A stretch of 43,399 nt of DNA from a virus. Below, piece after piece: positions 3,827 to 36,813 of the stretch (position 1 is the stretch's first letter; each line of letters begins with the position of its first letter). Location of the stretch: positions 1-43,399 of the IMG/VR virus record IMGVR_UViG_3300025704_000045; one strand, written 5' to 3'. A program made the position numbers and the translations under genes. A model generated the notes under the pieces. The model made no database searches. It was not told the DNA's origin and worked only from the letters and a program-made list of their open reading frames with translations.

Positions 3827-3863
3827 GTTATTCTCCTGTTGGATGTTAGTGTTTTCTATACAG

Positions 3864-3870
3864 TATTTAT
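3864..3870 (-). promoter_or_regulatory. T4-type late promoter for gp18
   Basis: The minus strand reads AATAAATACTGTATAG about 40 bases upstream of the gp18 start. The ATAAATACTGTATAG core is identical to that before gp19. Confidence 0.75.
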
Positions 3871-3938
3871 TATAATAGACACAAAACACCTAGCATATAC
3901 CACAGAAAAAGGTACCAAAAAGGTGAGCTAAATACGAC

Positions 3939-12319: not shown

Positions 12320-12695
12320 ATTACAAGGCGTAGTACCCAAAGGTTGGGGATACGAACTTATTTGGGCCACTAACGATAAGTATTGTGGTAAAATTATGTT
12401 TTTTGAAAAGGAAGGCGCCCAATTCAGCATGCACTTTCACCGAGAAAAGGACGAAACATGGTTTGTAAACACAGGTAAATTCAAAGTACAATGGATTGAC
12501 ACTGATACTGCTGGGCTATATGAAAAAGAATTAAATGAGGGTGATGTTTGGCATAATCCTCCGCTACAGCCACATAGGTTGATTTGTCTACAAGGCAGTT
12601 CTAGCATTACCGAAGTTAGCACAGCTGATAGTGTAGAGGACAATTACAGAGTTGCTCCAGGTGACAGTCAACGGTCAAAGGAAAAAAATGGCTAG
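12303..12695 (+). CDS. Cupin-domain protein (sugar-isomerase-like)
   Basis: A 130-aa single-domain cupin. It opens PKGWGYELIWATNDKYCGK, the start seen in mannose-6-phosphate-isomerase-type cupins, and has metal ligands H44, H46, E51 (MHFHREKDETWF) and H91 (PPLQPHRL). It may isomerise or epimerise a phosphosugar. GmhA, the normal first enzyme of ADP-heptose synthesis, is absent from this window, so this protein could feed the pathway, but no sequence evidence shows that. The start overlaps hldD by 17 bp with AGAGGA eight bases upstream, and its end overlaps gmhB by 8 bp, so it is an integral part of the operon. Confidence 0.75.
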   Translation: MQEPTRLQGVVPKGWGYELIWATNDKYCGKIMFFEKEGAQFSMHFHREKDETWFVNTGKFKVQWIDTDTAGLYEKELNEGDVWHNPPLQPHRLICLQGSSSITEVSTADSVEDNYRVAPGDSQRSKEKNG

Positions 12696-21224: not shown

Positions 21225-21919
21225 GATTTTTTAATATGTAAATACCAGATATCATTAGGATAAGTTACACTCAAACAATAATTTTCAATTCTTAATCCGT
21301 TATCTTCGATCATCTTCGCAAATGTTTCTGGATTACTACCTTTTGTATTTTCCATTAGTACAATATCAGCATCATCAGTTATATAGCTACTAACAGTATT
21401 AAAAAAATCTTGATGTATGTTCCAGTTTTGATCTTTATATTTTCGATGCTCGTTAGGGTCGATATTTCCAAATGACGGAGTAAAGCTAAAATGCGGCGGA
21501 TTTCCAATTATTAGATCATATGCTATGTTTGTAGGATGACTTTTAAAATTATTAGACAATACAAAATTTACATTATTATTAAGATTATTTTTATCTATAG
21601 TTTTTTCTACTACAAATTTATTTGGCTCGTGTATGTCTAATAATGTAAGACGTTCTGTTAAGCCTTGGCTTAATGTTCCAAAACCTAAATATCCAGGGCC
21701 AGAACACCATTCTAAACAATGATTATATATTCTGCCATTTGAAAAATGATTAATACAGGATACGGCATCAGCTGCTGTCTGATAACCGTATCCATCTAAT
21801 TTATTCGATGAGTAGACTAAAAATTTATCTAGTCTAACTTCAACAATGTCTGTATTAAGCAACTTTCCAATTTCCGACTGTAAGAAGCTTTCCGTATTCT
21901 GGCAAATACAAATATTCAA
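21221..21919 (-). CDS. NPPH-motif SAM-dependent methyltransferase
   Basis: A 232-aa class I methyltransferase: motif I LEWCSGPGYLGFG (69-81) and motif IV IIGNPPHF (NPPH at 140-143). The N-PP-aromatic/His motif belongs to enzymes methylating planar amide or amino nitrogens: glutamine (PrmC/HemK), guanine or adenine in RNA (RsmC, TrmN6) and adenine in DNA. I cannot choose between these. The start is uncertain: the ATG at 21919 lies 65 bp inside the carbamoyltransferase gene without a good ribosome site, while a TTG at 21862 (213 aa) after TTGGAAAG would overlap only the end. It ends the GT9-carbamoyltransferase operon. Confidence 0.68.
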   Translation of the reverse strand: MNICICQNTESFLQSEIGKLLNTDIVEVRLDKFLVYSSNKLDGYGYQTAADAVSCINHFSNGRIYNHCLEWCSGPGYLGFGTLSQGLTERLTLLDIHEPNKFVVEKTIDKNNLNNNVNFVLSNNFKSHPTNIAYDLIIGNPPHFSFTPSFGNIDPNEHRKYKDQNWNIHQDFFNTVSSYITDDADIVLMENTKGSNPETFAKMIEDNGLRIENYCLSVTYPNDIWYLHIKKS

Positions 21920-23654
21920 TCTTACTTTCGCTCAGTGTCCAAAGTGCATCTTCTAATGTTTCTACAAGAGGTTCTCCGCCTAGATTAAAACTAGTATTAA
22001 AGATAATCGGAACTCCAGTCTTTTCTTTAAATGCCTTAATCACTCGGTAGTAAAGAGGATTTTCTTCTTCAGTAACTGTCTGAATGCGACATGTACCGTC
22101 CACATGAATAATACTAGGTATTTTTTCAGCAATGCCTGGTTGACAATTAACAGCATACATCATATGTGGACTGTCTTCCATTCCCCGTAAATCAAACCAT
22201 TCGTGTGCGTCTTCGGCAAGTATTGATCCTGCAAACGGACGGAAGTATTCTCGATGTTTAATTTCATTAACGAAATCTTTGCCATCTTCAAAGGTCGGAT
22301 CGAACATCAACGAACGATTTCCTAATGCACGTGGACCGTTTTCAGCACGACCTTGAAACATTGCTACAATATTCTTATTAGTCATTAATTCGATAACGTC
22401 ATCGTCTGTTGCATCAGTAACAATAGCATTATATTCTTCTGCCAATTTAGTAATATCTTCATCTTTATAATTATACTGAGGACCTAGATAAATTTCTCTA
22501 GGCTGTGATTCTAAAGATTGACTAGTAGCATAATAATATAGTAAAGCAGCGCCAATGGCTGTTCCGCCATCATTTGATATAGGCTCAACAAATAATTCGA
22601 TACCTTCTTCATTAAGCCTATTAAGATACCAGTAGTTTGCTACACAGTTTAATCCGTAGCCGCCAGATAGTACTACTTTATTTTTACCTGATAATTTTGT
22701 AGCAGACAAAATTATATCTAATGCTTGTTCTTGTGTTTCTTGTTGACATGCATATGCTAAGTCTCTTCGATTTTGGTACTCTGTCCAAGTATGGTCATCT
22801 CCAACAGGACTATCTGACAATTCTTCATAATTTTTATGATTTACTATTGCAGCATTTGGATATGTTGGAACGAAAAGACTTCTATCAGCTAGTGGAATTT
22901 TAGTACTGTTTAAAAACAGTTTGGGTATATTACTATTTTCTTTACCGTATGGAAATAGTCCCATTGTTTTACCTGCTTCGATTGCTTGGAAGCCGCAGTA
23001 TTGTGTTACTGCTTCGTATACTTTTACTATGCCGGCGTGTCCTGAAACTACAGAAGTAAATGTATTGCCTTCTTCGCCAAACTGTGCTCCATCTGTATTG
23101 GTATTAATGGCTGTAACAATTGGATCTCTACATCCAAAATGTTTGTATAGAGTTTTAATATTGTCAGGATAAGAACAATCGTAAATACTCTCAACTTCCC
23201 AAAGTAACACATTACCATCTTGAGTTTGTCCTGAAGTTGCAGATCCAGCGCCATCAATAACTACTGCTACAGCTTCGTCAAAGCCACTCCTATAAAATGC
23301 ACAAGCAGCATGTACTTTATGGTGTAAATGGGAAACATCGATACATTGTGGATGATCATGTATATCACCTTTTCTATCAATTAATCCCATTTTTCTAGCT
23401 AAACCTGAATAAAGATTATCGCCCGTATACTCTATTTTTGGTCCATCATTAATAGACGTTGTGTGACACACCACTAGTGCATCAATTTTATCAGTATATT
23501 CTTTTACTTTCAACATTGTTGCTAAAGGGCCGCCATCATACTTGTGTCTTGTAAAGCGTTCTTCTTCGCTTGCAAATACAATTTTACCATCTTTAAGTAA
23601 GCAAACGCCTGCATTATGGCCTCTTGAAATACCTAAAATATATCCTGATGACAT
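21855..23654 (-). CDS. O-carbamoyltransferase (NodU/CmcH/TobZ family)
   Basis: A 599-aa enzyme of full family length. It transfers a carbamoyl group from carbamoyl phosphate, via carbamoyl-AMP, to a hydroxyl of a sugar or other acceptor. The N-terminal domain begins YILGISRGHNAGVCLL with HHKVHA (111-116; metal ligands H111 and H115 by TobZ analogy) and VVIDGAGS (D134). The C-terminal YrdC-like domain has MFQGRAENGPRALGNRSL and FRPFAGSILAED, both family hallmarks. Relatives include NodU, TobZ and, for LPS, the Pseudomonas WapO enzyme that carbamoylates heptose; others have been linked to 5-carbamoyloxymethylcytosine in phage DNA. It starts 2 bp after the GT9 stop; its AGGAG lies inside the GT9 gene. 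Confidence 0.93.
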   Translation of the reverse strand: MSSGYILGISRGHNAGVCLLKDGKIVFASEEERFTRHKYDGGPLATMLKVKEYTDKIDALVVCHTTSINDGPKIEYTGDNLYSGLARKMGLIDRKGDIHDHPQCIDVSHLHHKVHAACAFYRSGFDEAVAVVIDGAGSATSGQTQDGNVLLWEVESIYDCSYPDNIKTLYKHFGCRDPIVTAINTNTDGAQFGEEGNTFTSVVSGHAGIVKVYEAVTQYCGFQAIEAGKTMGLFPYGKENSNIPKLFLNSTKIPLADRSLFVPTYPNAAIVNHKNYEELSDSPVGDDHTWTEYQNRRDLAYACQQETQEQALDIILSATKLSGKNKVVLSGGYGLNCVANYWYLNRLNEEGIELFVEPISNDGGTAIGAALLYYYATSQSLESQPREIYLGPQYNYKDEDITKLAEEYNAIVTDATDDDVIELMTNKNIVAMFQGRAENGPRALGNRSLMFDPTFEDGKDFVNEIKHREYFRPFAGSILAEDAHEWFDLRGMEDSPHMMYAVNCQPGIAEKIPSIIHVDGTCRIQTVTEEENPLYYRVIKAFKEKTGVPIIFNTSFNLGGEPLVETLEDALWTLSESKIEYLYLPEYGKLLTVGNWKVA

Positions 23655-23656
23655 AA

Positions 23657-24664
23657 TTATTTTTCTCCTATTAGTTTTTTATTTGGTTTATCAAATATGG
23701 TCGAAGGTTTATTATTTGCCGACGGCAATTTCTTATTTGAACTTTCTGGTTTTCCGATTTTATCTGCGATACTTTTCATAATTTTTTTATAATTTTCCTC
23801 GTTTAAAATCATATTATCTTCGTTGTGTCTTTCTCTTGCAGGATCTTGAGTAACTCGATACGGCACGTATACTCTATTTTCTTTTCCGTTATCAATAATT
23901 GTAAAGTCTTTATTTCCTGGATAACTTATGTTTTCTGGAAAAGTTGATCCTATAACCACTGTTGCCGGTTTGCCTAATGCGTGGGCATAGTGTTGTCCCA
24001 TGCTATCGCAACCTAGAAAATAGTCTGCTGCATTAACTATTCCCGTCCACTGTAGCAAGCTTGCATTATCTGGTATAGCAGCACCCATAGGCCTATCGGT
24101 TGGAATTTTGAGATTTGTCATTAATATTACTGCATAATCCTTAGATAGTTCGTCAACTATTCTAAACACATCTGATAATTCAAAACTGCGGCCACTTTCA
24201 TCAAATACAAAATTGCCATCTATTTTAACACCGCTGCCAAATGGTTGAAAGACAATAACCTTTTCTTTTTTCATTTGTTGCTTAACTTGGCCTACTAAAT
24301 TATACCCATAAATTTGATCGGCTTTTCCGAGATCTAAATTTATAGGCTTACTTTCTACAGCTTCGTCAACATCATTAATAAGCATATCAAACGCCTGTAT
24401 TAAATTAACACGTTGATTAAAATAAGCATTTAGTCTGTAAGGCTCTGGACTAATAATTTCTCTATCTTTTAGAACAGTTTTAAATAATTCCTTACTGCCT
24501 ACTGGCCAAATATTATTTCTTAATTTTGAAGAAAGGAATAATTCATGCCATGCTTCTGATACTATTACAACATCTGGATCAGTGTTTTCTTTGTAATACT
24601 CTAATGCAGGTATGCTGCATAAAACTCGGCCAGCGCCGCCGTTTATAAAAAATGCCTTCTTCAT
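23657..24664 (-). CDS. Glycosyltransferase family 9 (ADP-heptosyltransferase-like)
   Basis: A 335-aa GT-B enzyme. GT9 members (WaaC, WaaF, WaaQ) move heptose from ADP-heptose to LPS core. Features seen: an N-terminal FFINGGAGRVLCSIPALEYY acceptor domain start, VIVFQPFGSGVKIDG at the second domain start, and the GT9 hallmark near the nucleotide site, NAADYFLGCDSMGQHYAHAL followed by GKPATVVIGST. The last 30 residues are a Lys/Asn/Ser/Pro-rich tail not seen in normal GT9 enzymes. AGGAG lies five bases before the ATG. It is first in an operon with the carbamoyltransferase and the NPPH methyltransferase. The acceptor could be LPS, a virion protein or modified DNA. Confidence 0.8.
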   Translation of the reverse strand: MKKAFFINGGAGRVLCSIPALEYYKENTDPDVVIVSEAWHELFLSSKLRNNIWPVGSKELFKTVLKDREIISPEPYRLNAYFNQRVNLIQAFDMLINDVDEAVESKPINLDLGKADQIYGYNLVGQVKQQMKKEKVIVFQPFGSGVKIDGNFVFDESGRSFELSDVFRIVDELSKDYAVILMTNLKIPTDRPMGAAIPDNASLLQWTGIVNAADYFLGCDSMGQHYAHALGKPATVVIGSTFPENISYPGNKDFTIIDNGKENRVYVPYRVTQDPARERHNEDNMILNEENYKKIMKSIADKIGKPESSNKKLPSANNKPSTIFDKPNKKLIGEK

Positions 24665-24855: not shown

Positions 24856-25926
24856 TTAGTTACACTCCCAGCTTACACATACCATGCCAAATCGTCCTGA
24901 GTCACCTTGACATCCATTGTAGCCACCACAAGTATAATTGCGCCAGCCGCCGGCGCCTGGTATTCTAAGATAACCTTGTGCGCCGCTACGATAACAACCG
25001 CCGTAACCCTGCGCATTATTCTGACTGCCACTGAAAGCATCAGCACAAGTGCAAGCTTCAAATCCGAATACCGGAGTTGATATAGTACAACTATTGTGTA
25101 AACAGCTGCCTGAGCCGCCGACACATATTGCAGGCCAAAGGCCATTTAACCCATATTTTGTAATAGTTCTGCCGTCGCTTGCTCCAGTATTTAATCTGAA
25201 TGTTGTTCTACTAGCAAATGCGTGACATGCTAAAGATTCATCCCAGTAATCGTCGTAACAGAAGTTCCAGCCGCTACATCTGTTTGCACTACATGTGCCG
25301 CCTGCTTGATCTGGATCTGGTATTCTGTGTCCGCAGGTCGAAGTGTTAGATTTTAAATCTTCGTTCCAGTAACAGAAACAACTAATTCCACTGTCTGCAC
25401 ATGCATTTATACCGGATGTTGAATTAAACCAAGTTGGGTTTCCGCAAATTCCTGGTGTAGTTTGCTCGCCCCAGCAGCAATATGCACAACCTGCGCAAAA
25501 ACAATATGTTTCGCCTTGGTTTACGCAAAACTGCATTACCATATATGCGCCGCTTGGACCAAATGGTGATCCGCCACAGCAGCAGTTACCACTGGTGCCG
25601 CCACCTGGGCCCCACATTTGCACTTGAATATTCGATACTCCTGAACAAATACTATGGTTACAATTGTTGCCACATCTCCAACAACTGCCACAGACTTTAA
25701 AGCCATATGTTTGTGCTGGACAAACTAAAGGAGTTAGATTAGTAACCCAGTCCTTAACAATTTGTGGACACGTATTAAATTCGCCAGCTCCATCGGCGGC
25801 ACCTGTTTGGTAAGGATATCCAGTAGGAGTCGGTTTACTATAATCAATAGCAACTGCACCGTCACCGTCAGCAGCTTTTAGCCGATCTCTTTCTTTAATT
25901 GCTGCATATAATATTACGTCACTCAT
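24856..25926 (-). CDS. Cysteine-rich glycine-rich-domain virion protein A
   Basis: A 356-aa protein with 35 cysteines (about 10 percent), many as CxxC, CC or CCC (KVCGSCWRCGNNC; GNCCCGGSP; CFCAGCAYCCWG). The scaffold resembles the glycine-rich fibre-tip domain: NIQVQMWGPGGGTSG, GPSGAYMVMQF, NQGETYCFCAGC, and an ending GDSGRFGMVCVSWEC that parallels the usual GDGGxGGPGxVxIxW. Cys has replaced many loop Gly residues. There is no signal peptide. It is paralogous to the protein at 26590-27579, with a 212-aa gene between them. Probably a receptor-binding or metal-/disulfide-stabilised tail tip component (inference). Start supported by AAGGAG six bases before ATG. The transcript ends at two hairpins. 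Confidence 0.7.
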   Translation of the reverse strand: MSDVILYAAIKERDRLKAADGDGAVAIDYSKPTPTGYPYQTGAADGAGEFNTCPQIVKDWVTNLTPLVCPAQTYGFKVCGSCWRCGNNCNHSICSGVSNIQVQMWGPGGGTSGNCCCGGSPFGPSGAYMVMQFCVNQGETYCFCAGCAYCCWGEQTTPGICGNPTWFNSTSGINACADSGISCFCYWNEDLKSNTSTCGHRIPDPDQAGGTCSANRCSGWNFCYDDYWDESLACHAFASRTTFRLNTGASDGRTITKYGLNGLWPAICVGGSGSCLHNSCTISTPVFGFEACTCADAFSGSQNNAQGYGGCYRSGAQGYLRIPGAGGWRNYTCGGYNGCQGDSGRFGMVCVSWECN

Positions 25927-25936
25927 TTAAATCTCC

Positions 25937-26575
25937 TTAAGATATATCAGGCAAAGTATTAAACGTTGCTACTAATGACGCAGGAATCTTTGGAATTACA
26001 GTTGCATCAATTGTTACATATCTCCAAGGATAAACTGTAGACATTGTTGTTAAATAATTATCTATATTAGTTTTAAATGTATCAATAACTGTTTGAGTTG
26101 CATCATCGAAATCGTAAGCTTCGTCGTATTTTACAACATATGCTAATCTTTCTTTGGCTGTTCTTTCATTCATAGTTTCTGATTGTTTAATAATCTGTTC
26201 TAATTCAAATCCATTTGCTGGTGTATATACCACTTCGTAAATATCATTTATTGTAGGATTATTAATTTCTTCATGCGTCGAATCATCATGATTTGTAATA
26301 GTAGTATATGTATACTCATGCTCTGCACCTGCATTTACTATTGCATGTGCAATAGCAGTATCAGTATCTGCATCAATAGTTACTACTAGTTGCTTATCTT
26401 CATCATCAACTGTAATGTCGTCTTCGGACCACCTAACAATAGGAAAGTCGTCTGTTAAACTTACTAGCACATTAATAGTCGATGGACCATTGTATGTGTA
26501 GTCTGTTGTTTTATTTTCTGTCCAGCTATCTACCCAAAGATCGTCTGGAACGTTTACTGTAAATGTTTTTTCCAT
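25937..26575 (-). CDS. Acidic protein of unknown function between the Cys-rich pair
   Basis: A 212-aa protein without cysteine, rich in Asp, Glu and Thr (FTVNVPDDLWVDSWTENK; ITVDDEDKQLVVTIDAD). The C-terminal third is more helical (MNERTAKERLAYVVKYDEAYD). I do not recognise a family. Its position between two cysteine-rich adhesin-like genes (10 bp and 14 bp gaps), the lack of cysteines and its charge fit a dedicated chaperone or adaptor, as tail-fibre assembly proteins often sit beside adhesins, but a virion protein is equally possible. Ribosome site AAGGA nine bases before ATG. Confidence 0.55.
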   Translation of the reverse strand: MEKTFTVNVPDDLWVDSWTENKTTDYTYNGPSTINVLVSLTDDFPIVRWSEDDITVDDEDKQLVVTIDADTDTAIAHAIVNAGAEHEYTYTTITNHDDSTHEEINNPTINDIYEVVYTPANGFELEQIIKQSETMNERTAKERLAYVVKYDEAYDFDDATQTVIDTFKTNIDNYLTTMSTVYPWRYVTIDATVIPKIPASLVATFNTLPDIS

Positions 26576-26589
26576 AATTTATTTTCCTT

Positions 26590-27579
26590 TTAACACCAAG
26601 TTACTCTTACCATTCCTGCTCGACCATAATCGCCTGACCAGTACATTGATCCACCCATCATGTGAGTGTACGTTCCACCTGCGCCAGGATAGCATCTGTG
26701 GCCGTCTTGTGCTCTACAGCGACAACCACCACAGCAACTACCACTACTAAATCCATAACAGCAGCATGAATTTGGCTGTGCTGTGTGACATGGACCAATC
26801 ACCGGAGGTGCTTGCATATATCCGTAGTGGTTAGTGTCAAAACATCCGCCGCCCCATGTTGCTGGTAGTCCGTAAACTGTTCCTGATGTAGCTGTGCCTC
26901 CAAAGGTATTATCTGCTGATCCTGTGAATGGTATTACTCCGCATGATGCACAACTATTGTCAAAGCAGTACCAAGTGCCGCCTTCACAAATACAAGGACC
27001 AGACTGTTCGCTAGAACCTACGCCTCTAAATCTACATTGGCCATAACTGCCACCATGTAAATCTTTCATACCGCATGATATTCTAGAGTGGCCACTTTCT
27101 GCACATAGACCACTAAGCCCAGGTCCGTTTACATAAGTACTACTTCCACAAACAGCATATCCTTGACTACAATAACCGTAACAACATGCTGCACAACCTG
27201 CACATAATGTATAACTATCTCCTGGATTAGCGTCGATAATTACTGTTGCAAAAGCTCCTGTTGCGCCTGTTGGCGAACCTGCACAACACATGCCGTTCAT
27301 AGTCGATGCACCTGGACCCCATAACTGGAATTGAACCTTTGAAGTTCCACTCGGAACTGTCCATGTGCAGCCTACACCACAGCCGAATCTAGTCGATGTG
27401 TTAACAACACACAAACACCCGGCAGGGTTACTTAACAACGGCATCAGGCTCCAATTAGCTGGATTGCCTGGTTCCTCTGCAAGTCCTGCTATCGCTAGGG
27501 CTAAGCCTTTTTCTTGCGTAGTAGTTTGGATTGCTTTTGTTTCTTTTAATACTGTGTTATATACTGCTGGATCTGCCAC
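26590..27579 (-). CDS. Cysteine-rich glycine-rich-domain virion protein B
   Basis: A 329-aa protein with 31 cysteines. The paralogy to protein A is clear in order: VQFQLWGPG, CCAGSPTGATGAFATV, NPGDSYTLCAGCAACCYG, VCGSSTYVN, LCAESG, and the end GDYGRAGMVRVTWC. The first part, CTWTVPSGTSKVQFQLWGPG, matches the entry of glycine-rich fibre domains (TVPxGVxxVxVxLWGAGGGG). The C-terminal half has NSCCCYGFSSGSCCGGCRCR. Start is a GTG (27577-27579) with AGGAG six bases upstream. It follows the 97-aa gene by 12 bp. A cytoplasmically assembled protein with so many cysteines suggests metal binding, or oxidation after release in seawater (inference). Confidence 0.7.
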   Translation of the reverse strand: MADPAVYNTVLKETKAIQTTTQEKGLALAIAGLAEEPGNPANWSLMPLLSNPAGCLCVVNTSTRFGCGVGCTWTVPSGTSKVQFQLWGPGASTMNGMCCAGSPTGATGAFATVIIDANPGDSYTLCAGCAACCYGYCSQGYAVCGSSTYVNGPGLSGLCAESGHSRISCGMKDLHGGSYGQCRFRGVGSSEQSGPCICEGGTWYCFDNSCASCGVIPFTGSADNTFGGTATSGTVYGLPATWGGGCFDTNHYGYMQAPPVIGPCHTAQPNSCCCYGFSSGSCCGGCRCRAQDGHRCYPGAGGTYTHMMGGSMYWSGDYGRAGMVRVTWC

Positions 27580-27591: not shown

Positions 27592-27885
27592 TTATACTAT
27601 GCTTAGACTTGATACTTCGCCGGTCGTAGCATCATAGTTTACTGTAATTGTTTGTGTTTCGTTAGTAAGGTTATTAGTTTCAGTCCAACTACCTACTTTT
27701 TTGTATGCGCCGCCATAATCAGCATTAGCTCCAGTGTCGTCAACATATGTAATACTTGAATAAGTTATGTTGTTTGCTACATAGGATGTAAGAAATCCAT
27801 CTGCATTTTCGACACTGTTTGTTGCTGTAAATGCAGCTGTCATATCTGACGCTGTACCTGTTGCGCTGCTTGTATATCTTCCCAT
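27592..27885 (-). CDS. Small Thr/Ser-rich virion-type protein (97 aa)
   Basis: The sequence is Thr/Ser/Asn-rich beta-strand type (MTAAFTATNSVENADGF; TETNNLTNETQTITVNYD) with no cysteine and no recognised domain. It begins the cysteine-rich operon: late promoter at 27907-27913, GAGAGG about 9 bases before the ATG, and the Cys-rich gene B 12 bp after. Likely a small structural protein or a neck for the adhesins; unknown. Confidence 0.55.
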   Translation of the reverse strand: MGRYTSSATGTASDMTAAFTATNSVENADGFLTSYVANNITYSSITYVDDTGANADYGGAYKKVGSWTETNNLTNETQTITVNYDATTGEVSSLSIV

Positions 27886-27906: not shown

Positions 27907-27913
27907 TATTTAT
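27907..27913 (-). promoter_or_regulatory. Late promoter overlapping an upstream stop codon
   Basis: The minus strand reads CATAAATACATATGAG. The TAA within ATAAATA is the stop codon (27910-27912) of the 105-aa gene. It should drive the 97-aa gene, both cysteine-rich genes and the 212-aa gene up to the terminator at 24742-24768. Confidence 0.7.
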
Positions 27914-28227
27914 GCTGCGGTTTCGATACCTACTACTACAGCACTAACACTAGCTTGCGTTGAATAAACAACAATACGCTGTGTAGCTGCTAGTACTATA
28001 CCAGTGCGCTCTAATACATTTTTTGAAAATACTTCTGTATCATACTCTATGTATTCTGCTGCGCCAGGCGTTGCCGCATCTGCAATTGCAATACGGATAC
28101 CGGTTGTTGCCGATCCTCTATTGCATATATTTATCGACACTACAGCATACGTTTCCGCGGGGCAGGTATATACTGTAGTTAATGTTGTTGCGCTTAAATC
28201 GTTTGCGCCTAGTTTTCCTGTAGCCAT
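27910..28227 (-). CDS. Small virion structural protein (105 aa)
   Basis: The sequence starts MATGKLGANDLSATTLTTVY, then ETYAVVSINICNRGSATTGIRIAIADA and AAEYIEYDTEVFSKNVLERTGIVL. I recognise this pattern from a small beta-rich structural protein family widespread in marine T4-like phages; its exact place in the virion is not known to me. The protein at 37585-37914 is similar in size and likely fold. It follows the 1578-aa gene by 15 bp on the same transcript; GGAG lies 10 bases before the ATG. Confidence 0.65.
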   Translation of the reverse strand: MATGKLGANDLSATTLTTVYTCPAETYAVVSINICNRGSATTGIRIAIADAATPGAAEYIEYDTEVFSKNVLERTGIVLAATQRIVVYSTQASVSAVVVGIETAA

Positions 28228-28242: not shown

Positions 28243-31200
28243 TTAATTTGATAAGAACATATTCATTGCAACAGGATCACCTTTGATACCGCCTGTAAAG
28301 TTAGTTCTAGTAGTTATATTTATCGTTTCGCCAAGTGTGTTAGTAATAGTATCACTATTAATTCTTATATTACCAGCAGTAAGTTGGTTAACATTCAACT
28401 CGCCTGCACCACCGCCGATTTGTGACTGTATATAAGTTTTAATTGCTTTTTGTGTTGGGACAATATTATCACTATTAGCAGTAAATGTACCATCTACGCT
28501 AAACTCTGTAATTGTGGCGTTGGTGCCACCTAAACTAATTGCACCTAGTTGCAGTTCTTGCAAGCCGCTAATATTAAAAGCATCAGCATCAAGAGTAGCA
28601 ATACCAGTTGCTTGTTCAATACTAAACAACTCACCAACTCTAAAGTTACCGTCTTGGTCAGTACTTGTATAGAATACTCTACCGCCACCTAAGTCATTTG
28701 TTTCTTTGGTCGGATCTGGATCTATCAAAGGAACACCTGGATAGTTGGTATTTGCAAAGTTACCAGTACCGATATCTAGGAAATCGTGTCCTGTTAAGCG
28801 TACTTGACTGTAACGAATGCGCATTTCTACACCTTCATTATGTTCCGGAGCATCAGTAATACTAATTGCTGGAGATATTTGTAGTCTTGCAGTATACGGT
28901 CCAGTTCCTGCTAAATCTCTAACAGTAACAAGTTTAAAGAATGTCCCTGTTATTCCGGCTATTTCGACATTTGAGCCAGCTTGCGGAATAGCTGTCAATC
29001 CTGCTACAACTATATTTGTTCCAGGTTGGTATAAGTCTGCATATCCATCACCAGATACTTCAGCCTGTGCTGTTGTAAAGTTTGTGCCTCTATTTGTCCA
29101 CGTTGGCTGACCTAATACTCCGTCACCAATTCTAACTAAGTGCGGAACTTCTACAGTGTTGTTTGGATCAGTAACTGTCATAGTAGGCGCACTTGTGTAT
29201 CCATTGCCTGAATCCCAAATACGAATTTCTACAATCTTTTCGTCGCTTACTCTAGCACGAGCTTTAGCAATATCAGCATAAGCAGTTACGCCGCCGCCGC
29301 TGAATGTTACTCTTGGTTCAATTAAATATTCAGTAGTGTCATCTAGAACACTTGCTATTGCAACACCTGTAACATGATCCCATCCTGCAGAGTCGTCGCT
29401 TTGTTTTTTAACAGTTGCAATTTTTGTACCACTATTGTAAGTATCAATGTAACCATATTGTCCTGCGCCTGTACCACTTACGATCCATATAGCCATTCCT
29501 ACATATTGAGCACTTGATCTAATATCAGTGTTACTTAATGTAATCTGTGTCGAAGTACCAATTTGGGCAGTATTAGTTCCGTCTATAAATCCATCTCCAC
29601 CAAAGTTATTTGACGGATCAGTTAGTCTAACTTCGTATACACCGCCATTGTTAACATTAACTGTTCCTACTGTTGCTCCAAAGCCTTCGCCTGTTGGAGT
29701 TATGGTTGTGGCACCTGATGTATAGTTAACACCAGCATTTGCATATTCAAGAGTAAGAATATTATTACCGTCAGTTAATACAGTAGAAACATTTGCTTCA
29801 GACGAATAATTATTTACTGTTGCGGTTATAGCAGTTTCTGTGCTATCAATGCCTTCAGCGACAGTACCAAAGTCACCGTATGAGGAGTTGCCGTTTGTTG
29901 CTCGAATTTTTCCGCCGTTCTCTGATAAGTAACCAATGTGTCCGTAATACGAGAACACACTAACTAATTCTGAACGTCCTAAGTTAGTAACCCAAACGCC
30001 GATGCCATCACTTAGAATCTGTGTAAAGTCATTAGCAACAATACTATCGTTGCCGCCAGCGTGTAAGTCGCCGTCTACTTTTAGACCAACACACCCAGTA
30101 CCAAACGTAGTTACGTTTTGTATGTATGGTGATTTATTGGTAATCCATGCATGTTCATCTGTTGTGCCGAAACCAGGATCTAGACTTACGTAAGCGCCTG
30201 CTGTTGGGCGTTTTGTGCCATTTGCATTAGCTGCACCTAGTGAACCTGTTAACCCGGTAACAGTACAATTTCTAAATCCAGCGCCATTGCGTAGATAAAG
30301 CATATCTTTATCTAATGATCCTTGAACAGATGCAACATATGCTTGTGCAGCTCTAATTGCTTTGTAATTTCCGGTATTAATTAAATCATATTGCGTAGCA
30401 CTAATGTAACGATCGACATCTCTAGCACATGCAGTTTCATTATAAACATAAGAAGGATATGTATCTGCAATGTATGCTAATACTTCTGCTTTTAAAAATT
30501 CTCTATTTGCTTCGAGTGATTCAATTGCATAAGTGTAATCAGTTGAAGTTAACGGAGTCATTGTTCCTGCTAAGGTCGGTTTAGTTCCTGTAGCATTAAT
30601 TTCAAAATCAATATGATCATATATATCTTGCACAATTCCAGCAGCAGCAGTGCCAGCAGCAGCTGATCCAACTACGTGGGTTGTAACGGGGTCTAATGCA
30701 TTGCCTGTAGTTTTAGTAATATTGCCCGGCGCTGTTACAGCATCGCTTATAATTGCTTGTAATCTAGATATGCCGTCTAAGCTATATGCTACGTCCGAGC
30801 CCGCTACTAGTCCACCTGCTGGACTAATTTTAGTAGAACGCAGTTCGTCGCCGACAAGTGCTGTATTTTTTGGAATTACAATCGGACACACTTCAAGAAA
30901 CTGTCCAGTTTTTACAAAAATAGTATTTTGTGGTTGTACTTCTGCAGGAACATTTGTATCTACTCCTGCTGTTACTGCGGCTGTAAGTATGTCTATAAGA
31001 TTATTAATAATGCCTTGGGCATCTGCTTCTTCTGTAAGTGTTGAATCAGTATGTCTTGTCAATGCGCCGAATGTTGCTACTGGAGCAACATTACTAATAA
31101 TTGCATCTATAACTGTTTCTGCGTATTCTGTTGCCGCAACAAACTCAGCTGTTTTGCCTGTGATATCGCCTGCATTAAAAATTGCTAGTGTTAGTTTACG

Positions 31201-32979
31201 AGATTCTTCGTTGCCGCTGTGTCCTAAATCATACAATAATGCAGTTATTAGTCGTCCAAAATAAACTCTCCATGCTGCTTTGTCATAAGTGAAAGAATTA
31301 GTAAATGGTGTTCCTGCGTTTGCTATTACTTGCGCATCAATCCACTCTACAGTTTCATCTTGTATAAATGCAGCATTTAATTCAATTAACTTACGTGCAT
31401 TAGCTCGCATATATCCATTTTCAATATTGTAAGCAGCATGTTTAATAGTTTTAAACGGTCTATCAATTGTTGTGCCGAAGCTAGGTGCTGCGCCATCTGT
31501 TCCGTTTACATCAACATACACAACATTGTTAATAGCACCATAAAAACCCCATTCAGGAGCATCACCTGCAGAATTTACACGTAAAATTTGTCCAAGTTGT
31601 CCAACTGGTAATCTTGCTGGACCTGCACCACTATAGTAAACTAAATCACCATCTGTAGTCATTACATTGTTTTCAGGCCCGCCGGCCATTAGATTCCATT
31701 CAGATCCATCTGTGTCTTGGTCTGGTCTGTTTTGGACAACTGTTTCGTCTGATGTGTGTTTTGCAACAGCAACATATGAGTTACTGTTATAACTAACAAC
31801 ATCGCCTAGATCGTATTCGGTTGCATCTGACCAAGTGTTTTTCCACTTAAATCCTTCATTAAGTTTTTCCCAATAAGTTGCATTAGGCGGTTCTTGATTG
31901 TTGCTATCAGCTATAGCTACATAAGTAAATCCACTGTGACGTATTACATCGCCTATAAGGTAATCTTGTGATGAGCTATCGTCGCCCCAATCGCCAACGA
32001 AACGAAACCCTGTATTAAATAGATCCCAATCAGTGTCGTTGTCAATAGGACGCAATCCTACATTATTTGTAATAGCAACATACGAGTAGCCTCCGTAGGT
32101 TACAATGTCGCCTGTTTCATAATTTGTTGTCGGGTTCCAGCTATCTTCAAATTCTAAACCTTCTACAAATTCTGCCCAATTTGCTTGGTCTTGACTAATT
32201 CTGTCTCGACCAGTGTACGGAGTTACACATATCCAAAGGCCGCCACTTGATTTAACAACATCGTTTACTTTATAGCGTGTACCGACAGCATACGTTCCTT
32301 TGTACTCGATGCCTTTGTGCATATAATCAAACTTAGCCTGATCTGCTTCTAGTCCTAATGTGTCTGTTGCAGCACTAGTGTGACCTGTATTAACAACATA
32401 AAGTTGTCCGCCATACTTGACAACATCGTTTACACGATATCTAGTATCAATAGCCCAGTCGCCCTGCCATTGCAGACCGTCTGTAAATTTCTGCCAGTTA
32501 GCTTGATCTGCTTCTAAACCTAATGCATCTGATGCAGCACTGGTATGCGCTGTAATACATAGATAAGTTATACCATTATATTTTGCAATATCGTTTACTT
32601 TATAATGAGTACCTGTTGCCCATGTGTTTTTCCAATCAAACCCTTCAGCATATAAATCCCATTTAGACTGATCGTTTTCAAGTAATGTATTAGCTGTGTG
32701 TGCTGTGTTTGCAACATACAAATAACCACCGTACTTTACAATATCGTTTATTTTATAAACGGTAGCGTCTGTCCAATCGCCTTTCCATTCTTGACCATCG
32801 GAAACTTTATCCCAATATGTAGCGAAGTCAGTATCAAAGTTACTTGTACTTGTATGTCCTATTGTACATACAAAGGTATTGCCACCATGCTTTACTATGT
32901 CATCTTTATAGTATACAGTGGTGCCTGTCCAAGCACCTTTCCATATAAATCTAATTCTACCTAATTTAAATTCAGCCAT
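28243..32979 (-). CDS. Large modular tail-fibre-type protein, 1578 aa
   Basis: Domains in order: eight repeats of 50-58 residues (8-433), each with WKGxW, a tyrosine, NDIVKYGGxxYV and a Trp (module like GDWAIDTRYRVNDVVKYGG), resembling small aromatic carbohydrate-binding modules; a start to a beta-helix (PFKTIKHAAYNI); two copies of a helical insert (31190-31400 and 30310-30520) with F.Q.E..EWID and CARDVDRYI; a beta-helix (about 890-1036) with SIVANDFTQILSDGIGVW and YLSENGGKIRATNGNSSYGD; and a C-terminal domain with TGHDFLDIGTGN and VFYTSTDQDGNFRVGELF. It is paralogous to 33007-36813, which lacks the helical inserts. Late promoter at 33004-33010. Likely host-glycan binding; no catalytic residues identified. 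Confidence 0.75.
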   Translation of the reverse strand: MAEFKLGRIRFIWKGAWTGTTVYYKDDIVKHGGNTFVCTIGHTSTSNFDTDFATYWDKVSDGQEWKGDWTDATVYKINDIVKYGGYLYVANTAHTANTLLENDQSKWDLYAEGFDWKNTWATGTHYKVNDIAKYNGITYLCITAHTSAASDALGLEADQANWQKFTDGLQWQGDWAIDTRYRVNDVVKYGGQLYVVNTGHTSAATDTLGLEADQAKFDYMHKGIEYKGTYAVGTRYKVNDVVKSSGGLWICVTPYTGRDRISQDQANWAEFVEGLEFEDSWNPTTNYETGDIVTYGGYSYVAITNNVGLRPIDNDTDWDLFNTGFRFVGDWGDDSSSQDYLIGDVIRHSGFTYVAIADSNNQEPPNATYWEKLNEGFKWKNTWSDATEYDLGDVVSYNSNSYVAVAKHTSDETVVQNRPDQDTDGSEWNLMAGGPENNVMTTDGDLVYYSGAGPARLPVGQLGQILRVNSAGDAPEWGFYGAINNVVYVDVNGTDGAAPSFGTTIDRPFKTIKHAAYNIENGYMRANARKLIELNAAFIQDETVEWIDAQVIANAGTPFTNSFTYDKAAWRVYFGRLITALLYDLGHSGNEESRKLTLAIFNAGDITGKTAEFVAATEYAETVIDAIISNVAPVATFGALTRHTDSTLTEEADAQGIINNLIDILTAAVTAGVDTNVPAEVQPQNTIFVKTGQFLEVCPIVIPKNTALVGDELRSTKISPAGGLVAGSDVAYSLDGISRLQAIISDAVTAPGNITKTTGNALDPVTTHVVGSAAAGTAAAGIVQDIYDHIDFEINATGTKPTLAGTMTPLTSTDYTYAIESLEANREFLKAEVLAYIADTYPSYVYNETACARDVDRYISATQYDLINTGNYKAIRAAQAYVASVQGSLDKDMLYLRNGAGFRNCTVTGLTGSLGAANANGTKRPTAGAYVSLDPGFGTTDEHAWITNKSPYIQNVTTFGTGCVGLKVDGDLHAGGNDSIVANDFTQILSDGIGVWVTNLGRSELVSVFSYYGHIGYLSENGGKIRATNGNSSYGDFGTVAEGIDSTETAITATVNNYSSEANVSTVLTDGNNILTLEYANAGVNYTSGATTITPTGEGFGATVGTVNVNNGGVYEVRLTDPSNNFGGDGFIDGTNTAQIGTSTQITLSNTDIRSSAQYVGMAIWIVSGTGAGQYGYIDTYNSGTKIATVKKQSDDSAGWDHVTGVAIASVLDDTTEYLIEPRVTFSGGGVTAYADIAKARARVSDEKIVEIRIWDSGNGYTSAPTMTVTDPNNTVEVPHLVRIGDGVLGQPTWTNRGTNFTTAQAEVSGDGYADLYQPGTNIVVAGLTAIPQAGSNVEIAGITGTFFKLVTVRDLAGTGPYTARLQISPAISITDAPEHNEGVEMRIRYSQVRLTGHDFLDIGTGNFANTNYPGVPLIDPDPTKETNDLGGGRVFYTSTDQDGNFRVGELFSIEQATGIATLDADAFNISGLQELQLGAISLGGTNATITEFSVDGTFTANSDNIVPTQKAIKTYIQSQIGGGAGELNVNQLTAGNIRINSDTITNTLGETINITTRTNFTGGIKGDPVAMNMFLSN
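31680..32955 (-). repeat. Eight WKGxW modules in the 1578-aa protein
   Basis: Eight consecutive units open with (W/Y/F)(K/Q/E)xxW (e.g. WKGDW, WKNTW, WQGDW), then Y...(N/G)DIV, a GG turn and Y(V/L)(A/C). Copies 3 and 4 share ADALGLEADQA-type linkers nearly unchanged, so the DNA contains short near-identical stretches that could recombine with each other and with the paralogue. Confidence 0.75.
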
Positions 32980-33003: not shown

Positions 33004-33010
33004 TATTTAT
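33004..33010 (-). promoter_or_regulatory. Late promoter overlapping an upstream stop codon
   Basis: The minus strand reads AAAGATAAATATATAAAATAG. The TAA inside ATAAATA is the stop codon (33007-33009) of the 1268-aa gene. It should drive the 1578-aa gene and the 105-aa gene. Confidence 0.7.
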
Positions 33011-36000
33011 CTTTTTGATCGATGTGCAAACAATTGCATTGCTAACATGTCGCCGCCGGCGATCCCGCCTGTTAAATTCACAGGAGTAGGAATATTTATT
33101 TCAGTTCCATTTGAACTAATATTACTTAAATCTACAGTAATTTGACCAGCAGTTAATTTATTAGTTGTAGCATTTGAACTACCGCCTGCAATTCTACTAG
33201 TTAAATATTTTATAATAGCAGCCTGTGTAGGTACAATATTATTACTGTTTGCAACAAATGTGCCGTCTTTACTAAACTCATTTACTACTACTGCACTACC
33301 TCCAACTTGTATACCGCCTAGACTAATTTGTGTAAGCCCTGTTAAATCAAACTGCGAAGCATCAATAGTAACAATGCCTGTTGATTGCTCAACTTCAAAT
33401 AGTTCACCAACACGGAAGTTACCATCTTGGTCAGTACTTGTATAGAATACTCTGCCGCCGCCGTTTTCTATAACTTCACTTTGTTGTTGAGGTTTATTTT
33501 CACTACTTATACCGTCCAAGTATAGCTGTGGATATCTTGTACTAGATACGTTTCCTGAGCCAATATCTAAGAAGTCGTGTCCTGTTAATCTTACCTGACT
33601 ATAGTCTTGTCTAATAGTAATCGAACTGTTATGTGCAGGAGATTCGTCTTCGCCAATACTAGGATATAATCTGATAGTTGCACTTAAATTTGGTTCTGAT
33701 CCTGTTATATCTGTAACTCTAGTAAGTTTATAAATTAAAGAGTCGATGCCATTAATAGAAACGTTATCTCCCGGACCAGGCAATCTAGTTAACCCAGTAA
33801 TTTTAAGATCTACGCCAGTTTGATAATTGTCAGCAAAGCCGTTTCCAGTAATGGTAGCAGTTGATCTAATATAACCTATACCACGATTTGCAAAGGTAGG
33901 CAATCCTAACACTCCATCGTTTACAAAAACATCAAACTGTGCGTTGGTAGTTGCTTCGTTATCAGTTACAGTAATATTAGGAGCCGATGTATACCCTGAG
34001 CCAGGATCATAAATATTTACACCTGATATTCTACTATTTTCTATAATAGCTCTACCCCATGCTCGTGTTCCTGAAGCAGGTGCATCAAATACTAGTCTAG
34101 GTTCAATTTTATAACGTGTTGTTAAATTTAATTCACTAGCAATTGCATAGTTGCTACTGATTCTATCCCAGCCTGCTGTACCATCGCTATGTTTTACAAT
34201 AGTAGCTACTTTTGTGCCAGGGGTATATGTATCTATAACGCCATATTGGCCTATGCCTGCGCCGCCCGTAATAAAAATAAATTGTCCTTGATATTTTGCT
34301 GCATCTGTTTGTAGATCTCCATTATCAAGTGTTATACTTGTAGTATCGCCTGTTTGTGCTCCAGCAGCAATATTTGTGTAGTTTAATCCTCCTGGAATAC
34401 TACTATCTCCTAATGTTGCAACTCTTACATTACTTACTGCGCCATTTCTAAAATCGCTCATTGTTAAACTTGCGTTGGCACCTGATCCTGCGACTGTAAC
34501 TGTAGCACTTGAATAAGATTGTCCAGCATTTGAATAAGCTATTGCCATAATCTCATTACCGTTATTATGAACTATGCCTACTTCAGCTTCTTTACTTTGA
34601 TTATTTATAGTAGCAAAAATTGGATCTTCGCCTGCTGTAACACCTTCAGCTACTGATCCATAAGTTCCGTATGAATTATTTCCGTTTGTGGCTCTCATTT
34701 TGCCGCCGTTTTCAGACAAGTAACCAATATAATTAAAATATGTAAACACACTAACAAGTTCTGATAGACCTTCGTTTGTTATCCAGGCTCCAATACCATC
34801 ATCAATTACTTGAGTAAAATCGTTGGCAACAATAGATCTATTGCCACTGTTGTGCAGAGCACCATCTACTTTTAGTCCTACACATGCTGTTCCAAATGTA
34901 GTTACGTTTTGTATATAAGGAGATTTATTTATAATATGTACACTAGTATCTGTCGGGCCTGTGCCTGGATCTAGGCTTACGAATGCACCCGAAATTGGAC
35001 GCTGTGTTAAATAAGAATTCGGACTGCCTAATATTCCTGTTAATCCCTGAAGTGTCATATTTCTAATTCCGCTTCCGTTTCTAACATAAAACATATCTTC
35101 GCCTTCGTATCCGGCAGCCGGTTGTATTACTGTGCTTCTAAGTTCATCTCCTACCAATGCCACATCCACAGGAACAGAAATGGGAAGTATCTCTTCATAT
35201 ATACCAGTTGTAATATATATTGTTGCAGGAGCACGCCCATTAATATCTTCAAGAATGTAATCACAGGCGTGTTTAACTGTTCTAAATGGTGCGTTAGCAG
35301 TAAATCCAAAGCCTACATCGTCTGATCCTTGTGTACTCACAAAATATACTTTTTCAGTTACGCCGAAATTACTAAACGTAGGAAGATTAGAAACCACTTT
35401 AGTTACTTGACCCGGAAGACCGATTCCTAATCTAGATATTTCTGAATTATAAACTCTCATATCACCAGCTTCGGCCAACACATTGTTTACACTGCCTTTG
35501 GATACATATTCCCAATAATTTTCTTGGTCCAAATCTTGATCTAAGTCAGGTCTGCTATCCGACGCCAGCGATGTGTGTCGTAGTATACATGTATAAGGAG
35601 TACCTAAATATGTAACAATTTCTCCGGGGTAGTAAACTTCGTTATCTTGCCATTCTGCTCTAAATTTAGATCCTGGTATTACTACACCCCAAGATAAACT
35701 ACTATCCGGATGTGCAGCTATCGAGTCAGTTATTGCTGAATACAAGCTGCCGCCGTGTCTAACAACATCTCCTGTTTTGTAGTTAGTGGCTTCATTCCAC
35801 TGTCCTGTAATTTTATAATTAGAATTAATTAAATCCCAATTTCCTACGCCTTTTTGAAATCCTGTTGACGACGGTGTTGAATTTAAATTTCTTACTAATG
35901 CAACATATGTATACCCGCCATATAAAACAACATCACCCTTATCGTATTCTACATTAGATAGCCAAGGATCTTCGTATCCAATTCCTGGAATCCAGATTTG

Positions 36001-36813
36001 CCAGTTGGTTAAATTATCAGAAGTAAATGTAGTCGAAGTGTGGGCCGATATACACATGTAAAGAGAAGAATCAACTTTAACAATATCGTTTACTTTGTAC
36101 TTTACACCCGGTGCCCAGTCTGTTTTATACTCCAATCCTGATAATATTGCTTCCCATTTAGATTGATCAGTTTCTAGACCTACTGCTAGCGTAGCAGCAC
36201 TAGTGTGACCTTCAATACATCTATAAACAGTGCCGCCATAGCGCACAACATCGTCTACTACATATCTTGTTTCTATTGCCCAATCTGTTGCCCAGTAGTC
36301 GGAAGTAACTACTGTAGTCCAACTAGATTGATCTGCTTCTAAACCTAAATCTGTAGAAATTGCACTAGTATGTGTAGTTGAACAAATATAAACAATACCA
36401 TTGTATCTAACTACATCGCCTAAATTATAATTATAACTAGTAGACCATGCATTTTTCCAATCGTACGTAGTAGCTATCAATGTCCAATGTGCCAAGTCGT
36501 TAGGTAACCCTAGATTATCTAATAAAACGCTGGTATGATTAGATACGCATCTATAAATATAACCATTATATTTTACAATATTGCCGATACCATAATTAGA
36601 ATTTGCAGTCCAAACGCCGCGCCATTCTTGACCTTCAAACATTAATTCCCATTTAGAAATGTCAGTTCTTATATCAGCTCCAGCTGTGTGTCCAACCATA
36701 CAAACATAAACTCGACCTCTGTAATAAATTACATCGTCCTTAGCGTATACAGTGCCAGATACCCATCCGGCCTTCCATTTAAATCTAATTCTATCTAATA
36801 AAAAATCTGCCAT
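33007..36813 (-). CDS. Large modular tail-fibre-type protein, 1268 aa
   Basis: Paralogue of the 1578-aa protein. It has eight N-terminal repeats (about 8-438; e.g. WRGVWTANSNYGIGNIVKYNG), a beta-helix from about 490 (GFTANAPFRTVKHACDYIL, then IYITTGIYEEILPISVPVDV, SIVANDFTQVIDDGIGAWIT and LSENGGKMRATNGNNSYGTY) and the same C-terminal domain (TGHDFLDIGSGN, VFYTSTDQDGNFRVGELFEV, ANSNNIVPTQAAI). It lacks the two helical inserts, so the pectate-lyase-like beta-helix is continuous. It ends in LFAHRSKR, where the stop lies within the next late promoter. Start at ATG 36813 with AGGA about 7 bases upstream; a GTAAATACAAT element at about 36840 may be its promoter. Confidence 0.75.
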   Translation of the reverse strand: MADFLLDRIRFKWKAGWVSGTVYAKDDVIYYRGRVYVCMVGHTAGADIRTDISKWELMFEGQEWRGVWTANSNYGIGNIVKYNGYIYRCVSNHTSVLLDNLGLPNDLAHWTLIATTYDWKNAWSTSYNYNLGDVVRYNGIVYICSTTHTSAISTDLGLEADQSSWTTVVTSDYWATDWAIETRYVVDDVVRYGGTVYRCIEGHTSAATLAVGLETDQSKWEAILSGLEYKTDWAPGVKYKVNDIVKVDSSLYMCISAHTSTTFTSDNLTNWQIWIPGIGYEDPWLSNVEYDKGDVVLYGGYTYVALVRNLNSTPSSTGFQKGVGNWDLINSNYKITGQWNEATNYKTGDVVRHGGSLYSAITDSIAAHPDSSLSWGVVIPGSKFRAEWQDNEVYYPGEIVTYLGTPYTCILRHTSLASDSRPDLDQDLDQENYWEYVSKGSVNNVLAEAGDMRVYNSEISRLGIGLPGQVTKVVSNLPTFSNFGVTEKVYFVSTQGSDDVGFGFTANAPFRTVKHACDYILEDINGRAPATIYITTGIYEEILPISVPVDVALVGDELRSTVIQPAAGYEGEDMFYVRNGSGIRNMTLQGLTGILGSPNSYLTQRPISGAFVSLDPGTGPTDTSVHIINKSPYIQNVTTFGTACVGLKVDGALHNSGNRSIVANDFTQVIDDGIGAWITNEGLSELVSVFTYFNYIGYLSENGGKMRATNGNNSYGTYGSVAEGVTAGEDPIFATINNQSKEAEVGIVHNNGNEIMAIAYSNAGQSYSSATVTVAGSGANASLTMSDFRNGAVSNVRVATLGDSSIPGGLNYTNIAAGAQTGDTTSITLDNGDLQTDAAKYQGQFIFITGGAGIGQYGVIDTYTPGTKVATIVKHSDGTAGWDRISSNYAIASELNLTTRYKIEPRLVFDAPASGTRAWGRAIIENSRISGVNIYDPGSGYTSAPNITVTDNEATTNAQFDVFVNDGVLGLPTFANRGIGYIRSTATITGNGFADNYQTGVDLKITGLTRLPGPGDNVSINGIDSLIYKLTRVTDITGSEPNLSATIRLYPSIGEDESPAHNSSITIRQDYSQVRLTGHDFLDIGSGNVSSTRYPQLYLDGISSENKPQQQSEVIENGGGRVFYTSTDQDGNFRVGELFEVEQSTGIVTIDASQFDLTGLTQISLGGIQVGGSAVVVNEFSKDGTFVANSNNIVPTQAAIIKYLTSRIAGGSSNATTNKLTAGQITVDLSNISSNGTEINIPTPVNLTGGIAGGDMLAMQLFAHRSKR
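35500..36795 (-). repeat. Eight WKxxW modules in the 1268-aa protein
   Basis: Eight units match one to one with those of the 1578-aa protein in order and spacing (unit 1 IRFKWKAGW against IRFIWKGAW; unit 2 QEWRGVW against QEWKGDW; unit 3 YDWKNAW against FDWKNTW). One-to-one matching shows the whole array was duplicated with its gene rather than expanded separately. Confidence 0.72.

Follow-up and report, generated by a model that had tools for sequence, protein, structure and literature searches.

The stretch analysed here, the whole 43,399 nucleotides of IMG/VR virus record IMGVR_UViG_3300025704_000045 (positions 1 to 43,399; hereafter the window), encodes two exceptionally cysteine-rich (Cys-rich) proteins, candidate tips of a tail fibre, close to a divergent glycosyltransferase (GT) resembling the heptosyltransferases of family GT9, and it is the relationship between these genes that concerns us. 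An earlier note had placed two Cys-rich open reading frames (ORFs) at this locus, and both are present on the minus strand: P0002 (26590–27579; GTG start with AGGAGA upstream) has 329 amino acids (aa), of which 31 are cysteines (9.4%) and 17.0% glycines, and P0001 (24856–25926) has 356 aa with 35 cysteines (9.8%) and 14.9% glycine. The remaining 29 ORFs of the window taken as genes hold 92 cysteines in 13,135 residues (0.70%), a rate at which the binomial chance of such counts is 1.5e-28 for P0001 and 6.5e-25 for P0002, and the extreme richness claimed for the pair is borne out. The motifs that the note saw as shared, namely the WGPG entry, GAY/GAF, CAGCA.CC and the terminal GD.GR.GMV.V.W, do align between the two proteins. 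Unmentioned in the note, a cysteine-free, glycine-poor ORF (25937–26575, minus strand; 212 aa, 0 cysteines, 1.4% glycine) separates the paralogues; 79 of 83 two-copy loci likewise have an ORF of comparable length between the copies, loci of one contig being counted more than once.

The pair belongs to a minus-strand cassette ordered as fibre, two small genes, Cys-rich gene, middle gene, Cys-rich gene, GT-like gene and carbamoyltransferase gene, and Prochlorococcus phage P-SSM2 has the identical gene order (PSSM2_301 to 308, encoded on a single strand). Specifically, a tail-fibre gene with seven CBM_5_12 carbohydrate-binding stretches (28243–32979; PF02839, E 2.5e-40; PSSM2_301 position) lies upstream of genes for a small conserved tail-fibre-associated protein (27910–28227; PSSM2_302 position) and a second small protein (27592–27885; PSSM2_303 position), followed by those for P0002 (PSSM2_304 position), the middle protein and P0001 (PSSM2_306 position), the GT9/heptosyltransferase-like protein (23657–24664; PSSM2_307-like) and an adjoining NodU-type carbamoyltransferase (21855–23654; PSSM2_308-like).

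Homologues, which the earlier note had proposed to seek in marine phages, occur in P-SSM2, S-SSM7, S-CAM1, S-CAM3 and Sf-FS3. When 50,697 phage records were searched with tblastn, relatives of P0001 were found in six and relatives of P0002 in seven; a search from PSSM2_306 extended the set to 18 records, including the Synechococcus phages S-SSM7, S-CAM1 and Sf-FS3, and one from S-CAM1 added S-CAM3. These last four phages each carry three Cys-rich copies in the same region (8.0–11.6% cysteine). A profile scan of IMG/VR returned 122 relatives, 80 of which were retained and represent 75 loci, and a profile search over the ORFs of the gathered loci produced 132 unique sequences; 126 are full-length, and clustering at 90% leaves 107. 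Cysteine content across these 107 members spans 6.05–12.5% (median 9.3), and none is Cys-poor, a count to be read in the light of a recruiting profile that is itself Cys-rich. A literature search by title or start of abstract found no paper about phage fibre tips rich in cysteine, S-glycosylation of tail fibres or a heptosyltransferase linked to a fibre.

Among 12 members of the GT family that were scanned, 11 match the heptosyltransferase III model (best E 3.5e-7) and 10 match PF01075 (best E 1.1e-5), in both cases at E up to 0.1, and the family profile reaches WaaC (E 0.017) and WaaF (E 0.045) in the PDB through a C-terminal D-S-x-G-x-H region. The D..G..H motif of this region, which serves a nucleotide-sugar role, is present, with D220 and H225 invariant in the 12-member alignment and the region aligning to WaaC; E74 is a further invariant residue. 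The family occurs in 55 phage records, 23 cyanobacterial or marine single-cell and 32 from Vibrio or Aeromonas, and a Cys-rich protein adjoins the GT in all 11 phages inspected (P-SSM2, S-SSM7, S-CAM1, S-CAM3, Sf-FS3, AG-345-F15, AG-345-O18, AG-345-P14, HJ05, SBP1 and D505). In eight of these the neighbour has at least 7.6% cysteine overall; in HJ05, SBP1 and D505 the cysteines are locally concentrated, at 17, 13 and 15 per 150 aa, SBP1 thereby falling under the threshold of 15 applied below.

The association holds from either side. Starting from the Cys-rich genes, the GT lies within 3.5 kb downstream in 86 of 86 sufficiently long loci (four further loci are too short), a set that includes several loci per contig and reduces to 60 distinct loci when clustered at 95% identity and to 45 at 70%. 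Starting from the GT, a locus counted as positive if a neighbour on the same strand within 6 kb had at least 15 cysteines per 150 aa, flanks of at least 3 kb being required on both sides; the closest 80 loci of 588 relatives and a further 76 more distant loci were sampled. All 45 two-flanked loci of the closest set are positive, and the 11 of its 80 loci below 12 cysteines per 150 aa are those in which the GT is preceded by only 2 to 1,020 bp. The distant set gives 45 positives among 57 loci, rising to 46 at a threshold of at least 10 and to 53 at one of at least 8. By comparison, a neck-gene control, built from genes closely related to that of the window (77–99% identity) and controlling for position, not phage lineage, scores 0 of 36 loci at 12 or 15 cysteines per 150 aa, two at 10 and three at 8, with none at 12 among all 80 control loci. 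Taken together, the 156 GT loci form 45 clusters at 70% identity, 44 of them testable (a truncated positive is counted as testable, a truncated negative is not); 40 of the 44 are positive on the same strand, and one more (L253) has its three Cys-rich relatives encoded on the opposite strand, no more than about 7 kb away, which brings the count to 41 of 44.

Another vantage point is offered by the conserved small gene that precedes the cassette (27910–28227), used as a neutral anchor with 80 of its 406 relatives retained. Of these anchor loci, 65 extend 6 kb or more downstream and fall into 61 with both GT and Cys-rich gene, none with either alone and four with neither; among the 15 shorter loci, four have both, seven have the Cys-rich gene alone on contigs ending at most 3.1 kb from the anchor start, and four have neither on contigs ending at most 1.1 kb away. 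At the corresponding site of the GT-negative locus L430 stands a protein with 23% glycine and 5 cysteines in 652 residues, an ordinary PF21722 member (E 3.2e-18). The carbamoyltransferase accompanies the GT in 81 of 81 Cys-positive loci with long flanks and in 57 of 62 distant-set loci with at least 5 kb downstream, versus 0 of 34 controls; related carbamoyltransferases appear in 133 phage records, many lacking the GT and none, in that search, from Vibrio or Aeromonas. In metagenome-assembled genomes, all seven strong GT matches have a Cys-rich neighbour (19 to 30 cysteines per 150 aa), and two weak ones (E 9e-6 and 1e-4) have no such neighbour (best 10 per 150 aa). Metagenome-assembled genomes labelled as bacteria and archaea (L353–L359) carry the phage GT/Cys-rich module; the contigs concerned are probably viral and were binned together with cellular sequence. 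A scan of bacterial and archaeal genomes with two sequence patterns found no Cys-rich relatives, and since GT-bearing contigs of the same collection do have Cys-rich neighbours, that scan missed them.

The proteins beside the GT are not all of one kind. A second Cys-rich domain (A7; in L223, L137, L182 and L254) matches neither the profile of the first nor, for the two members scanned, any Pfam family, and a PDB search with it found nothing; in Vibrio phages, the cysteines lie in a glycine-poor stretch that looks helical by eye. Cysteine is the most enriched residue in all three architectures (+3.46 log2 over background in 126 sequences of the first, +3.72 in 4 of the second and +2.93 in 2 of the third). 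What these proteins have in common is cysteine and the GT rather than a scaffold, which favours cysteine as the acceptor. One second paralogue (L223:5817-6512) joins the MSDVILYAA N-terminus of P0001 to an unlike Cys-rich C-terminal domain, as if a fibre-tip domain had been swapped. The GT9-like family is near-obligately linked, in genetic terms, to Cys-rich tail proteins of several architectures, and a functional link between the Cys-rich tips and the GT is very likely.

The structural setting was assessed with AlphaFold2 for P0002, the member of the pair that was modelled (106 sequences; mean predicted local distance difference test score, pLDDT, 91.1; predicted template modelling score, pTM, 0.89). 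The model has N-terminal docking helices of the Pam3-gp24 type (residues 4-35 and 40-45) followed by beta strands and a glycine- and cysteine-rich domain, and it matches the Pam3 tail fibre (7ypx_A; VIA Z 12.8, 3.0 Å over 188 residues; Foldseek E 2.1e-5), the tail tip of Bxb1 (Z 11.8) and the glycine-rich domain of ALK/LTK (Z 9.6 to 6.9), with unrelated rows from 3.8 down. Its best viral models are the P-SSM2 and S-CAM3 relatives, followed by many ‘glycine-rich domain-containing’ proteins. Sequence comparison points the same way more faintly: PF21722 gives sub-threshold matches to Cys-rich proteins in single-genome searches (best PSSM2_304, E 1e-4, 19.3 of 24.3 bits) and is the one family weakly matched by 4 of 20 relatives (best E 0.2); P0001 and P0002 themselves match nothing in Pfam at E up to 1, PF21722 included, and a PDB sequence search with the Cys-rich proteins gave no match. 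Together with the adjoining tail-fibre genes, these fold matches uphold the part of the earlier note that saw tips on a glycine-rich scaffold, leaving aside the disulfide or metal purpose that it gave the cysteines, and the two proteins are likely to be tail-fibre tips.

The middle protein (25937–26575) is modelled with high scores (pLDDT 96.3) as a beta-type N-terminal domain plus a helical C-terminal domain, like the two-domain Pam3 chaperone gp25, although the structural match to gp25 is not significant (Z 4.7 across 74 residues, ranked with unrelated rows) and the best Foldseek match has E 0.84. Against PHROGs, 36 of its 45 relatives fall in one family of unknown function, and no chaperone is among the 25 Pfam families listed for the 45. 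In one locus (L110), a Phage_tail_APC protein (E 1.2e-9) is encoded in the interval that separates the GT from the Cys-rich genes. We infer that the middle protein is a fibre-assembly chaperone.

A source for an unusual sugar is at hand on the plus strand of the window, which encodes an HldE-like heptose-7-phosphate kinase/heptose-1-phosphate adenylyltransferase (9708–10844; PRK11316, E 2.6e-84), an HldD-like ADP-heptose 6-epimerase (11495–12319; TIGR02197, E 1.9e-67) and a GmhB-like heptose-bisphosphate phosphatase (12652–13308; PRK08942, E 2.5e-36), all under curated cut-offs, with a small cupin (12303–12695; Cupin_2, E 3.1e-7) inside the cluster. All 23 GT-positive records of cyanobacterial or single-cell phages have an HldE adenylyltransferase match and none of the 32 GT-positive ones from Vibrio or Aeromonas does, overlap being compared by record name with many genomes near-identical. 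Vibrio and Aeromonas make ADP-heptose for their own lipopolysaccharide (LPS). Conversely, the LPS of marine Synechococcus WH8102 and CC9311 is described as having neither heptose nor 3-deoxy-D-manno-octulosonic acid (KDO) (PMC4515613), so that the ‘LPS genes’ of their phages had no obvious target.

These observations are best accommodated by the following scheme. Tips of the Pam3-gp24, glycine-rich type would have had many positions turned to cysteine; in the infected cell, the GT9-like enzyme would move a sugar, most likely heptose from ADP-heptose, onto the cysteine thiols (S-glycosylation), with the cysteine-free middle protein holding the freshly made tips as a chaperone meanwhile, and the carbamoyltransferase might afterwards carbamoylate the sugar. 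Virions would thus display a thioether-linked glycan coat on the tips that contact the host, and cyanophages would bring ADP-heptose genes because the LPS of their hosts lacks heptose. That the GT S-glycosylates fibre-tip cysteines we judge to be evenly balanced between true and false; heptose as the sugar is plausible, a tentative assignment. In its most general form, the proposal is of a mobile two-part module of tailed phages, a GT9-like S-glycosyl- or S-heptosyltransferase and a Cys-saturated tip, which would give the host-contacting end of the virion an enzyme-resistant thio-linked (carbamoyl-)heptose coat and would have been fitted to several tail proteins of unlike architecture, the puzzling LPS genes of cyanophages such as P-SSM2 existing at least in part to feed it; this composite we hold to be just short of an even call.

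A number of observations weigh against S-glycosylation or the linkage on which it builds. Three of the 44 GT clusters (L224, L237 and L255) are negative: with both strands considered, their best neighbours reach 11, 7 and 10 cysteines per 150 aa, and relatives of the first Cys-rich type are absent from their contigs; a search of negative-cluster contigs for A7 gave one weak match with two stops in that of L224 and none in those of L237, L240 and L255. At 50% identity, the GT loci collapse into merely four clusters, two positive and two negative, so that it is close clusters that carry the linkage count, and the four anchor loci with neither gene amount to two independent cases, L430, L434 and L439 listing identical ORFs. 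The window's own GT scores 12.8 of 22 bits against PF01075, far under the curated cut-off. An invariant arginine (R13; HMMER alignment of 12 members) takes the place of the aspartate of the N-terminal GD motif of WaaC, a residue with a catalytic role, and the enzyme may accordingly use another mechanism or donor. The acceptor atom, the sugar and the presence of the proteins in virions are deduced from genomes and models. In P0002, moreover, C67, C129, C132 and C133 tend toward joint loss, the sole coherent set in the tree-based test described below, as a disulfide pair or a metal site would. The supply of sugar is likewise open to question. No GmhA was seen in the window, where family scans covered part of the ORFs; HldE-like matches also occur in nine GT-negative cyanobacterial phage records; and a profile search for HldE repeats the contrast between the GT-positive cyanobacterial or single-cell records and those from Vibrio or Aeromonas (5 of 5 versus 0 of 3), but with none of these over the family cut-off, whereas 11 of 14 control genomes match, three of them over it. 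HldE-like matches lie near the neck-gene control in 16-18 of 34 loci versus 30-33 of 52 and 32 of 62 near the GT, and being nearly as common near the control they make the link to ADP-heptose suggestive only; the link of the carbamoyltransferase to the GT is firmer. Of five GT-negative HldE carriers that were inspected, AG-345-E08 is a fragment and four, namely P-TIM68, S-SM2, S-T4 and Sf-CH8 (L442, L443, L444 and L445), have the gene in larger polysaccharide clusters that lack the Cys-linked GT, so that cyanophage ADP-heptose genes may have more than one use.

The earlier note had explained the cysteines by disulfide hardening or metal binding. If they paired mostly within one chain, even counts and paired gain and loss would be expected, and neither is seen: 56 of the 107 members have an even number of cysteines and 51 an odd one, and, on a tree built with cysteines masked, coincident changes in the same direction across the 1,596 pairs of 57 cysteine columns number 679 versus 741.7 expected, with two column pairs at p<1e-3 versus 1.6 expected and likewise no excess for thirteen other residues. 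Neither parity nor gain and loss thus lends support to these purposes beyond the one four-cysteine set. Disulfides that join subunits or involve some of the cysteines, as well as a small number of metal sites, would be compatible with both tests. Tips in which cysteines of neighbouring glycine-rich strands pair after lysis, the GT acting on serine, threonine or otherwise, would suit the spacing of about 5 Å between strands described for the Pam3 glycine-rich domain (PMC9608196), the 12 cysteine columns kept in at least 85% of 108 aligned sequences and the coherent loss of the four cysteines. The parity and the lack of paired changes argue against such tips, which would, moreover, leave unexplained both the linkage to the GT and the Cys-richness of a glycine-poor, by-eye helical region beside the same enzyme, and we consider them rather unlikely. 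The CxxC and CCC clusters, again with the jointly lost set, might instead suggest tips that bind iron or zinc clusters for receptor binding, with the GT unrelated; given that most cysteine columns vary independently, that no metal-protein family was matched in Pfam or, by sequence, in the PDB, and that the GT linkage would once more go unexplained, this is very improbable.

A different alternative sets the chemistry of the tips aside and has the GT, the carbamoyltransferase and the ADP-heptose genes remodel the host surface, for instance in superinfection exclusion, while the Cys-rich tips co-evolve and no enzyme acts on the fibre. Surface-modifying genes are often found near receptor-binding genes, and the HldE-like genes in polysaccharide clusters of GT-negative cyanophages fit this alternative, as does the published suggestion that the LPS genes of P-SSM2 alter the host surface (PMC2984593). 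It does not, however, explain why cysteine, across unlike architectures, tracks the GT in cyanophages as well as in Vibrio and Aeromonas phages, and we regard it as unlikely.

Elsewhere in the window, the ORF at 33007–36813 starts with repeats that look similar to those of the 28243–32979 fibre, and the C-terminal part of the ORF at 36833–37573 (minus strand), YYYCINHSGMGG, appears cupredoxin-like, both by eye. The sole further ORF of the gene set above 4% cysteine (3939–4274, plus strand; 111 aa, 9 cysteines, 8.1%) has its cysteines in CxxC pairs and the look of a small HNH-type zinc endonuclease, again by eye. For the tail sheath (473–3889, minus strand; 1138 aa), the best 15 of 2,517 records belong for the most part to phages of rhizobia and Pseudomonas (43-48% identity), including Agrobacterium phage Atu_ph07, Sinorhizobium phage Phosso and those of the Pseudomonas PA5oct type, with no cyanophage among these 15. 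With its best-ranked sheath relatives outside the cyanophages and a P-SSM2-like fibre cassette, the phage may be a mosaic, to judge from these similarities.

Under S-glycosylation, the Cys-rich tips would have an enzyme as partner and a chemistry open to test, and ADP-heptose genes formerly read as surface modification would gain a target in phages whose hosts have heptose-free LPS. If true, this would amount to multi-site protein S-glycosylation on a virus tail, would alter the understanding of cyanophage adsorption and would add a new enzyme family for putting sugars on cysteine. Should the chemistry prove mistaken, the near-obligate link of one enzyme family to Cys-saturated, unlike tail proteins would still demand explanation.

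Among known systems, the proposed chemistry shares its acceptor with the glycocin S-glycosyltransferases of the SunS type, which place a sugar on cysteine thiols as we propose for the phage tips, but act on small peptides of Gram-positive bacteria. Mycobacteriophages offer a precedent for a phage enzyme that decorates a structural protein of the virion, with other enzymes and other acceptors, and we know of no Cys-rich target among them. The bacterial autotransporter heptosyltransferases (BAHT) TibC and AAH resemble the proposal in transferring heptose from ADP-heptose to a surface adhesin protein, whereas the acceptor proposed here is cysteine; the phage family is not classed as TibC-type because the BAHT iron finger uses four cysteines (PMC4358343), a motif that is missing from the 12-member alignment, where no cysteine is invariant, and a PDB search gave no TibC. 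WaaC, WaaF and WaaQ of GT9 share the C-terminal D-S-x-G-x-H region and the weak profile matches, but the phage enzyme departs from them in the arginine at the N-terminal GD motif, and the LPS of marine Synechococcus lacks heptose (PMC4515613). For the tips themselves, the closest counterpart is Pam3 gp24 (PDB 7YPX/7YFW), described as having N-terminal helices, a TNF-like domain and a glycine-rich domain, with gp25 as its chaperone (PMC9608196): both have a long and a short N-terminal helix, a beta domain and a strand lattice, with a beta-plus-helical protein encoded beside them. By contrast, the glycine-rich domain of Pam3 gp24 is 39% glycine (PMC9608196), versus 15-17% glycine and 9-10% cysteine over the whole length of the window proteins, and the Cys-rich cassette has two or three paralogues together with a linked GT and carbamoyltransferase.

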